DNA from: Synechococcus sp. A15-62
GTDB taxonomy: Bacteria > Cyanobacteriota > Cyanobacteriia > PCC-6307 > Cyanobiaceae
Reading direction: 5' to 3'
Assembly: GCF_014280075.1 (NCBI RefSeq)
Contig: NZ_CP047950.1
Coordinates: 620,001 to 684,000, forward strand
Length of the DNA stretch: 64,000 bases
Of the stretch, positions 54,338 to 58,140 are shown in pieces. A program made the translations under genes and the position numbers. Numbering within the stretch: position 1 is the first letter of the stretch; each line of letters starts with the position of its first letter. Below the pieces are notes generated by a model that saw only the letters and a list, made by a program, of their open reading frames with translations, did no database searches and was not told the DNA's origin.

Positions 54338-55180
54338 ATGGACCAGCTCCGCAAGCGATTTGATCAGCTGACGTGGCCCGAGGCCAGTCATGCCGCCCGC
54401 CAACCTGGTGCCACGGTGATCTGGCCGTTTGGAGCCTGTGAGCAACACGGCCCCCAATTGCCGCTTTCGACGGACGCTGTTTTTGCTGACGGAATCCTTG
54501 ATTCCGTGTTGTGGGGGCTTGAGCCGGCTCTGCCGATTTGGCGACTGCCCTGTCAGGCCATCGGCTTTTCGCCTGAGCACCAGAACTTCCCCGGCACCCT
54601 CAGCCTTTCGGCCCCTCTACTTCTGGATCTGGTCGACCAGGTGGGCACGCAGCTGGCGGCGATGGGGGTGCAGCGCCTTGTTCTGTTCAACGCCCATGGC
54701 GGCCAGATCGGTTTGCTGCAGGTGGCAGCCCGACAGCTGCGGGCTCGCTGCCCATCGTTGGCCGTTCTGCCCTGCTTCCTCTGGAGTGGCGTGGAGGGGC
54801 TGGCGGATCTGTTGCCTGAGCAGGAGCTGCTCCATGGTCTTCATGCCGGCCAAGCCGAAACCAGCTTGATGCTCCAGATGGCTCCAGATCTGGTGGGATC
54901 GGCCCGCCCGGTGGATGGACGTCCAGCGCCGGGTTCCGCCCCGGAGCCGCCGGAGGGTTGGAGCCTCGAAGGGGCGGCACCCTGCGCTTGGCTCACCGAC
55001 GATCTCAGCGCGACGGGGGTGATCGGGGATGCCCGCCAGGCCTCAGCAGATCTGGGACGTTGTCTGGAAGATCGCTTGATCAACCACTGGCAGAAGCGTT
55101 TTCAGGCCCTTTTGACCAGCGACTGGCCACCCACCCAAAGCCTTCTCTCCAAACCGTCCAAGATCACGCCCACGTCCTGA
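54338..55180 (+). CDS. Creatininase-family amidohydrolase
   Basis: 280 residues. Metal motifs of the family are seen: [20 protein letters not shown] (E..H..D) and [20 protein letters not shown]. Family members hydrolyse creatinine, formamides or related amides; substrate unknown here. Divergent from the S1 gene by 47 bases. ado follows 76 bases later on the same strand. Confidence 0.85.
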
Positions 55181-55186
55181 ACCTTG

Positions 55187-55212
55187 GACGCATGTGTCCC
55201 CAACTCTTGGGG
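55187..55212 (+). promoter_or_regulatory. Overlapping hairpins in the ado leader
   Basis: A short GGAC/GTCC hairpin (55187-55199) overlaps a better one, CCCCAA/TTGGGG with a three-base loop (55198-55212), so they exclude each other. They lie 45 bases before ado. No T-run, so not a terminator for the creatininase gene. Could be chance. Confidence 0.3.
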
Positions 55213-55256
55213 CACTGGTTATTGTCGGTCCCACTGAACGTGGTGGACAGCGTCCT

Positions 55257-55976
55257 ATGACTACCCTCAATGCACCTGAAGCACCCGTGCTGGAGGGCCA
55301 GGACGCACTGCCGGATTTCACGACTGCTGCCTACAAGGACGCTTACAGCCGGATCAACGCCATCGTGATCGAGGGCGAGCAGGAAGCCCACGACAACTAC
55401 ATCTCCCTTGGAACACTGATCCCCGAGCAGGCCGAGGAGCTCAAGCGTCTGGCACGGATGGAGATGAAGCACATGAAGGGCTTCACATCCTGCGGTCGCA
55501 ACCTTGGCGTTGAAGCCGATCTGCCTTTCGCCAAGAAGTTCTTCGAACCCCTTCACGGCAATTTTCAGGCTGCTCTCAAAGAGGGCAAGGTGGTCACTTG
55601 CCTGCTGATTCAGGCCTTGTTGATCGAAGCATTCGCCATTTCCGCGTATCACATCTATATCCCTGTGGCCGATCCCTTCGCCCGCAAAATCACTGAGGGT
55701 GTGGTGAAGGATGAGTACACCCACCTCAATTACGGCCAGGAATGGCTGAAGGCCAACTTCGAGGCCAGCAAAGATGAGCTTTTTGAGGCCAACAAAGCCA
55801 ATCTTCCACTCATCCGCTCGATGCTCGAAGACGTGGCTGCTGATGCTGCTGTCCTTCACATGGAGAAGGAAGACCTGATCGAAGACTTCTTGATCGCTTA
55901 TCAGGAAGCTTTGGGTGAAATCGGCTTCACCTCCCGCGACATCGCCCGCATGGCAGCAGCAGCGCTTGCTGTTTGA
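55257..55976 (+). CDS. ado: Aldehyde-deformylating oxygenase
   Basis: Di-iron enzyme that turns long-chain aldehydes into alkanes and formate. 239 residues: [10 protein letters not shown] and EMKHMKG carry the first iron ligands (E, then ExxH); [14 protein letters not shown] carries the second ExxH. The hydrophobic helix [20 protein letters not shown] contributes the last Glu. ATG 55257 chosen. It is followed by the acyl-ACP reductase, which supplies the aldehyde. Confidence 0.96.
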
Positions 55977-56000
55977 GCCGTTTCAGGGCTTGATCATTCG

Positions 56001-56036
56001 CCGGTTTATCGACAGGCACGTTGCCGTCGATACCGG
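56001..56036 (+). promoter_or_regulatory. Long intercistronic hairpin between ado and aar
   Basis: CCGGT-TT-ATCGAC (56001-56013) pairs with GTCGATACCGG (56026-56036), 11 base pairs with a two-base bulge. The loop folds further: GGCA/TGCC (56015-56018 with 56022-56025) around a three-base tip. No T-run follows, so it is not a standard terminator. It may protect or process the shared mRNA. Confidence 0.6.
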
Positions 56037-56090
56037 TTGCCATGGGAGCATGGTCGTTCGAGGTGTTCTTTGAGACGTCAGCGGTAAGAC

Positions 56091-57131
56091 ATGTTTGGTC
56101 TGATCGGACATTCAACGAGTTTTGAGGCTGCCCGCCGCAAGGCGATGGAACTCGGGTTCGATCACATCGCCGATGGTGATTTAGATGTGTGGTGCAGTGC
56201 ACCTCCGCAGCTCGTTGAGCACGTGAAAGTCACTAGTCCTGTAGGAACGACCATCGAGGGTGCCTACATCGACTCCTGCTTCGTGCCCGAGATGCTGAGC
56301 CGCTTCAAAACGGCCCGGCGCAAGGTTCTTAACGCGATGGAACTTGCCCAGAAGAAGGGCATCAACATCACTGCCCTGGGCGGCTTCACCTCGATCATTT
56401 TCGAGAATTTCAACCTCCTGCAGCACCAGACAGTGCGGAGCACCACCCTGGATTGGCAGCGGTTCACCACCGGAAACACCCACACGGCCTGGGTGATCTG
56501 CCGTCAGGTGGAGAACAACGCTCCAACCCTTGGCATTGACCTCAGCAAAGCCAAGGTGGCCGTAGTAGGTGCCACTGGTGATATCGGCTCAGCCGTCTGT
56601 CGTTGGCTGCAGGCACGCACCGGAGTTGGTGAGCTGCTGCTAGTGGCGCGTCAGCAGCAACCGCTGCTCGATCTTCAGCAGGAACTGGGAGGTGGACGAA
56701 TTCTGTCGCTCGATGAAGCCCTGCCTGAGGCCGATGTGGTCGTCTGGGTGGCGAGCATGCCCCGCACCCTTGAGATCGATCAAGACAGCCTCAAGAAGCC
56801 CTGTTTGATGATTGATGGGGGCTATCCCAAAAATCTCAATACCAAGGTCGCCGGTGGTGGCATCCACGTTCTCAAGGGTGGAATCGTTGAGTTCTGCCGC
56901 GACATCGGCTGGTCGATGATGGCCATCGCCGAGATGGAGCGGCCGCAGCGCCAGATGTTTGCCTGCTTTGCCGAAGCCATGCTGCTCGAGTTTGAGCGCT
57001 GCCATACCAACTTCAGCTGGGGACGCAACAACATCACCCTCGAGAAGATGGATTTCATTGGTGCGGCATCGGTCCGCCATGGGTTCAGCACCTTGAACCT
57101 CCATCCCAACCTGCAGGCCACCGCTGCCTGA
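56091..57131 (+). CDS. aar: Long-chain acyl-ACP reductase
   Basis: Reduces acyl-ACP to fatty aldehyde with NADPH, feeding ADO. 346 residues: [20 protein letters not shown] is the dinucleotide site, and the Cys in [14 protein letters not shown] (about residue 292) corresponds to the active-site Cys of known AARs. ATG 56091. 114 bases after ado and 19 before accA. Confidence 0.96.
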
Positions 57132-57150
57132 CCCTCGGAGAGCCAGAGCC

Positions 57151-58140
57151 ATGCCCCGTCGCCCCCTGCTTGAGTTCGAAAAACCGCTCGTCGAGCTTGA
57201 GCAGCAGATTGAGCAAATCCGCCAGCTGGCCAGAGATTCGGAAGTCGACGTTTCGCAGCAGCTTCAGCAACTGGAGAGTCTCGCGGCCCGTCGTCGTCAG
57301 GAGATCTTTCAGGGCCTAACTCCAGCTCAGAAAATTCAAGTTGCTCGTCACCCGCAGCGTCCGAGCACGCTGGATTTCATCCAGATGTTCTGCGACGACT
57401 GGGTCGAACTGCATGGCGATCGTCGCGGTAATGACGATCAGGCCTTAATTGGCGGTGTCGGCCGAGTTGGCGATCGACCCGTGATGTTGATCGGTCATCA
57501 GAAAGGCCGCGACACCAAGGAAAATGTCGCCCGTAATTTCGGGATGGCTGCTCCGGGTGGCTACCGCAAAGCCATGCGGTTGATGGACCATGCCGATCGT
57601 TTCCGCCTGCCGATTCTCACGTTCATCGATACCCCCGGGGCCTACGCCGGCCTTGAGGCTGAAGAGCTTGGTCAGGGTGAAGCGATCGCCGTCAACCTGC
57701 GGGAGATGTTCCGCTTGCGAGTTCCGGTGATCGCCACCGTGATTGGTGAAGGCGGCTCCGGGGGTGCCTTGGGCATCGGGGTGGCGGATCGCTTGCTGAT
57801 GTTCGAGCACAGCGTCTATACGGTGGCCAGCCCTGAGGCCTGTGCATCCATTCTCTGGCGTGATGCGGCCAAGGCGCCTGATGCGGCGGCAGCCTTGCGG
57901 ATCACGGGTCGTGACCTGCTGGAACTTGGGGTGGTGGATGAGGTGCTCGAGGAGCCCTCCGGTGGCAACAACTGGGCACCATTGGAGGCTGGAGAAAACC
58001 TGCGGGCGGCGATCGAGCGTCACCTCGACCAACTGCTGAGCCTTTCGGAACAGCAACTGCGTGAGGCCCGTTACTCCAAATTCAGAGCGATGGGGCGGTT
58101 CCTCGAAAAAACGTCACAGGATGTCGACAAAGCCGCTTAA
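57151..58140 (+). CDS. accA: Acetyl-CoA carboxylase carboxyltransferase alpha subunit
   Basis: Half of the carboxyltransferase that makes malonyl-CoA for fatty acid synthesis. 329 residues: [20 protein letters not shown] at the start, [40 protein letters not shown] and [20 protein letters not shown] are intact. Position right after aar links lipid supply to alkane synthesis. Confidence 0.96.

Follow-up and report, generated by a model that had tools for sequence, protein, structure and literature searches.

The 114-nt spacer between ado and aar, the two alkane genes in the 64-kb window analysed here, appears to combine a hairpin part with a linear-element part. As a joint account of both, our best explanation, which we hold tentatively, is a hairpin without a U-tract acting on the ado side as RNA, together with a linear element, CRTGGGANNATG, lying near an aar promoter. 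For the most part, this would be the ordinary anatomy of a gene end followed by a gene start. The source genome, assigned to the genus coded g1, is a single contig of 2,294,140 bp (2.29 Mb), in which the gene order is ado, aar and then accA. The ado stop and the aar ATG are on the same strand, and both flanking genes are assigned by curated protein models. The gene 5′ of ado (54338–55180 of the window) shows a creatininase/MftE-type resemblance under the curated cut-offs. Searched against the 2.29-Mb genome, the full spacer hits no second site beyond two 18–19-nt matches at chance level (E 1.5 and 2.8). A repeat element was ruled out on this single copy; in the repeat-element check the sole further copy, with one mismatch, sits within a 315-aa reading frame. 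Additionally, Rfam 15 gave no match in the 64-kb window, and a search of 55150–56150 returned two hits (E 0.22 and 0.73), both on the minus strand and both below the gathering score. We found no published description of the large hairpin or the motif in the open-access literature searched, and a search of PMC5607370 for the gene names gave no hit.

Table 1 Features of the ado–aar region (positions in the window)
Feature	Position	Strand	Basis
Predicted ado −10, TATTGT in CTGGTTATTGT	55220–55225	+	Predicted from conservation; internal yardstick
ado, aldehyde-deformylating oxygenase	55257–55976	+	NCBIfam equivalog TIGR04059, 406.8 bits (cutoff 222.65)
Large stem-loop	56000–56037	+	56000–56005/56032–56037, bulge TT, 56008–56013/56026–56031, bulge A, 56015–56018/56022–56025, loop 56019–56021
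Upstream block CCGGTTTATCGACAGGCACGTT, the left arm of the hairpin	56001–56022	+	Read by eye; single genome copy at ≤3 mismatches
Conserved linear motif CRTGGGANNATGG (earlier "small hairpin")	56041–56053	+	Spacer counts, column conservation, pairing test
Possible place of an aar −10; reads TCGAGG, no consensus −10	56058–56063	+	By homology, from the offset of 17–18 from the motif in relatives; weakly placed
aar, long-chain acyl-ACP reductase	56091–57131	+	TIGR04058, 635 bits (cutoff 449.7)

The large stem-loop comprises 16 pairs interrupted by bulges of 2 nt and 1 nt, with a minimum free energy of −22.0 kcal/mol and a z of −3.90 that none of 200 shuffles equalled. An 11-bp stem with an inner 4-bp stem had been proposed at 56001–56036. 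These pairs form as described (CCGGT/ACCGG plus ATCGAC/GTCGAT, then GGCA/TGCC closing a CGT loop), but the outer G-U pair and both bulges had been omitted. The claim that no T-run follows is correct, as the downstream sequence reads TGCCATGGGAGC. The whole spacer folds with a z of −2.17 (6/200 shuffles equal), and the opposite strand of the hairpin folds nearly as well, with a z of −3.17. However, stability by itself proves little, since −22.0 kcal/mol is reached at 43 separate places on the plus strand of the 64 kb (40-nt window), by 11 of 279 mid-gene controls and by 4 of 28 co-directional gaps, the ado–aar gap included. None of six convergent gaps reached it; this control set came from crude ORF calling over 464 kb (321 ORFs). 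The large hairpin is beyond chance locally and unexceptional genome-wide.

The 211 loci compared carry 179 distinct spacers, and hairpins were scored in the 116 that had a recognised ado stop, sufficient length and a genus label. L139–L142 are absent from these, their ado end having been missed by the pattern, and their folds are weak (−8.4 to −11.8). The best local hairpin had a z below −2 in 42 of the 116 spacers, with 15/27 in g1, 9/9 in g4 (Prochlorococcus), 11/24 in g5 and 0/7 in g2. Within g1, the carriers are the window's subclade, a second subclade (L020, L021, L137 and, in part, L138) and L136, which has a different sequence; at the same place the hairpin is weak or absent in L016–L019, L022, L024, L133–L135 and L139–L142. 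On an aar tree built without L087, the hairpin label takes 8 changes against a shuffled mean of 13.1 (5/500 as low) and is clustered.

When 16 sequences (14 distinct) are aligned without gaps, both sides have changed in 4 pairs versus 1.8 (19/500 shuffles as high) and in 7 cells versus 2.1 shuffled (0/500), and the covariation score is 0.213 against 0.141 (0/500 as high); with the 3′ side displaced by +3, 3 pairs and 6 cells are still obtained. In a second register, fitted by ourselves without a control by shifting the left arm of four clade-IV rows by one base, 15 of the 16 sequences retain 14–15 of 15 pairs, and four pairs have changed on both sides between the two subclades. Five subclade sequences have one broken, uncompensated pair each. 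By eye, the left arm reads TCGAC in the subclade, which pairs with the right arm, and TTCAC, TCCAC or ATCAC in sister lineages; L143–L156 have no rows in the by-eye spacer comparison, and L132 was left out of one alignment. Since all compensated changes fall between two subclades, they may represent few events. The alignments thus give moderate support to the large hairpin as an RNA structure conserved in two subclades, through few events. The proposal of a structured element survives in this form, but the structure is not general in marine cyanobacteria.

The class of this hairpin can be narrowed by what follows the stem. A stable, GC-rich hairpin 3′ of a gene (−22.0 kcal/mol, z −3.9) is one half of an intrinsic terminator; the other half, a U-tract (at least 4 U in 8 nt) past the stem, occurs in none of the 15 g1 hairpins with z below −2. 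All 15 strong g1 hairpins being without it, the structure is not a canonical Rho-independent terminator, and a consensus scan of 55100–57200 detected two terminator-like sites, neither at the large hairpin. As a U-tract-less hairpin 3′ of a stop codon, it falls within the I-shaped terminator-like type, which it resembles in being stable, soon past the stop codon and free of a T-run (PMC7406221, in part); it differs in being a candidate known from sequence, kept in part of one genus, and in overlapping the upstream part of a possible promoter. In g4, by contrast with the U-less g1 hairpins, all nine distinct spacers have, in the same part of the spacer, a strong hairpin with a T-run behind it.

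Three published systems help to place the element. Synechocystis PCC 6803 is alike in having, within one spacer, a hairpin after ado and a separate aar start site (promoter P3); there, however, the stem-loop at the mapped ado 3′ end is reported to be of typical Rho-independent type, with the end 75 nt past the stop, whereas the window hairpin has no U-tract (PMC4094844). The REP-type 3′-stabilising hairpins of E. coli share the possible protection of a 3′ end without stopping transcription, but they form a repeat family, while the window hairpin is a single genome copy (PMC13289151). In S. elongatus, strong structure was reported in 46% of the defined 3′ ends that have no U-tract, and the phylum is reported to have no Rho, according to the same paper. 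In PCC 7002, I-shaped ends marked the less stable messages, whose half-lives were shorter than those of messages with U-tract ends (PMC7406221), so a strong protective role of the hairpin should not be assumed. A 2025 study also predicted stem-loops in the untranslated regions of both genes in Synechocystis and Limnothrix (PMC12127877, in part). The large hairpin is a possible structured element of the ado mRNA, which may serve protection or partial termination.

Just downstream, an inverted repeat, CCATG-GGAG-CATGG, lies at 56040–56053 exactly where it had been placed, but its reading as an RNA hairpin does not hold up. Of 131 genus-labelled distinct spacers, 66 have the motif, giving 51 distinct 20-nt sequences, among which L122 was retained although it is probably a chance match. 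Pairing occurs in 84.7% of cells versus 83.5% when shuffled (87/500 as high), 192 of 500 shuffles gave a covariation score as high in the 51 sequences, and single pairs are broken in 18, 15 and 6 of them; the motif used to select the rows already determines two of the five pairs and one half of a third, which leaves the test free only at the remaining positions. Covariation, the check that the original prediction had named, is thus found as compensated pairs of the large hairpin in two subclades and is missing from the small one in all 51 sequences, in which the linear motif is nevertheless kept. We therefore rejected the small hairpin as an RNA structure. A short reading frame starting at the motif ATG was also rejected: it has 7 codons in the window and is in frame with aar in L017, L022 and L031 but differs elsewhere.

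The motif itself is far more frequent than expected, since CRTGGGANNATG stands at the right distance in 66 of the 131 labelled distinct spacers versus 0.87 in shuffles. By genus, it is found in g1 (31/31), g5 (16/24), g6 (3/3) and g10 (6/7), and in neither g4 (0/9) nor g2 (0/7). Among the 18 g1 sequences outside the subclade, information content along the spacer peaks in the motif columns, a signal that the search pattern sets in part, while dropping no g1 row. On these comparisons CRTGGGANNATG behaves as a conserved linear DNA element and not as a conserved RNA hairpin.

A yardstick for a promoter in these genomes is provided by ado. One of the strings CTGGTTATTGT, CTGGTTATTCT and CTGGTTACAGT lies upstream of ado in 31 of 31 distinct g1/g5 sequences, counting only those recognised by pattern, and a −10-like string is present at 40 of 41 eligible g1/g5/g6 loci, the exception being L028. 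At 55194–55225, a 7-bp hairpin (GTGTCCCC...GGGGCAC) is directly followed by the kept −10-like CTGGTTATTGT, in an order resembling that at aar; such a hairpin is within chance expectation (2 found, 1.6 expected).

For aar, a sigma-70-type −10 (TANNNT) is absent from the homologous place in the window, and in the 34 nt from the motif TANNNT occurs in no g1 row (0 of 31, counting that of the window); a scan of 55100–57200 gave no promoter-like hit for aar or elsewhere in the span. Relatives offer some indication of where such a −10 would lie. With a loosened motif, TANNNT occurs at an offset of 17–18 in 10 of 85 rows versus 1.8 shuffled (maximum 7 of 2000), six of the ten coming from patterns loosened after the sequences were seen (L032, L090, L103, L114, L174, L175, L181, L192, L219 and L220 are the ten). 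The strict motif gives 4 of 74 versus 1.5 (maximum 8), which is near chance. Ten further rows, from g10 and g14, have TANNNT at offset 12, inside TGTAGCGT, and six matches fall at other offsets. In the AT-rich spacers TANNNT alone is uninformative (26/26 versus 21.6 shuffled); a TG placed 3–5 nt before it, 35–70 nt upstream of aar, is found in 25 of 26 spacers versus 7.2 shuffled, this test covering five low-GC genera only (g2, g3, g4, g7 and g22). Equating the motif with the −10 of Prochlorococcus was dropped, as some sequences have both the motif and a TANNNT 17–18 nt further on. With this weaker evidence, CRTGGGANNATG may directly precede the aar −10 and be part of the aar promoter.

Two arrangements were seen near aar in other genera. 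All nine g4 spacers (L092, L093, L095–L097, L100, L101, L104 and L105) place a T-tailed terminator-like hairpin upstream of an TGGTCTAACCT-like aar −10. Variants of GATGTAGCGTCSGCGACATC, capable of forming a hairpin and slightly upstream of aar by eye, occur in g10 (L116, L121, L123–L125 and L129), and likewise in g8 (L046, L048, L050, L051 and L061) and g14 (L056–L058 and L068).

Start sites of Prochlorococcus MED4 and MIT9313 have reportedly been described by Voigt et al. in 2014. Separate ado and aar start sites are reported for Synechocystis, Anabaena, Nodularia, Trichodesmium and Prochlorococcus MIT9313 and MED4, and the RNAs of the two genes are mainly monocistronic in other cyanobacteria, MIT9313 and MED4 among them (PMC4094844). 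An in-situ start-site map exists for a near relative, Synechococcus CC9605 (PMC5069720, in part).

In the mechanism we favour, the observed and compensated hairpin would act on ado RNA, and CRTGGGANNATG, which probably adjoins the aar −10 region on its upstream side, would have a promoter function in the window genome. On this reading, aar most likely also starts from a site of its own, about 20 nt before its ATG. From such a start, neither hairpin would be in the primary transcript of aar, but only in ado or read-through RNA. Since the region may hold an aar promoter element, the relative expression of the two genes may be set by separate transcription and not by RNA processing alone.

The strongest competitor, which we consider possible though doubtful, is that ado and aar form one message in g1, with the hairpin as a read-through or processing element inside the dicistron, no promoter for aar and another role for the CRTGGGANNATG motif. 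The genes lie 114 nt apart on one strand, the strong g1 hairpins have no U-tract, the spacing from motif to −10 in relatives is weak, and a canonical aar −10 is missing from all 31 g1 rows while that of ado is kept. On these last two counts (0/31 and 31/31) aar in g1 may depend mainly on read-through. Against a dicistron, the CRTGGGANNATG motif is strongly kept, and independent ado and aar start sites are reported in six other cyanobacteria (PMC4094844).

Alternatively, the inverted repeat of the large hairpin could work at the DNA level, as a dyad operator that binds a transcription factor upstream of an aar promoter, with RNA pairing as a by-product. Compensated changes would fit a dyad too, both strands fold, and the left arm lies within reach of a block, overlapping it, that by eye is seen again in g1 and g5 even where the window hairpin is missing; several relatives in g1 and g5 have a form close to CCGGTTNNNNCACAGGCACGTT. 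The bulges are asymmetric, however, with 2 nt in one of the subclades and 1 nt in the second, which suits RNA better than a DNA dyad, and the sequence is a single copy in the genome. We consider this reading unlikely. Equally improbable is that the hairpin arose by chance in a GC-rich genome and persists solely through a conserved underlying DNA element: equal stability is common (43 plus-strand places and 11/279 mid-gene controls) and several sister lineages have no hairpin, but the z of −3.9, the compensated pairs and the subclade's TCGAC arm, which by eye pairs with the right arm in place of the sisters' TTCAC, TCCAC or ATCAC, stand against it.

A broader idea is one that we regard as more speculative than any of the above. 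CRTGGGANNATG and the block CCGGTTNNNNCACAGGCACGTT about 18 nt upstream would be a putative site at which, throughout the marine picocyanobacteria, a regulator acts specifically on the aar promoter. This site would offset the lost −10 in high-GC lineages, and ado terminator strength would have co-evolved with it: the terminator would be U-tailed in lineages with a canonical aar −10 and leaky in those without one.

The ado–aar spacer bears on two wider matters. How transcripts end without Rho in cyanobacteria is an open question (PMC13289151, in part), and the dosage of ado and aar is relevant to alkane engineering. Near relatives hold natural versions of the spacer before the same gene, with a U-tailed hairpin, a U-less hairpin or no strong hairpin.
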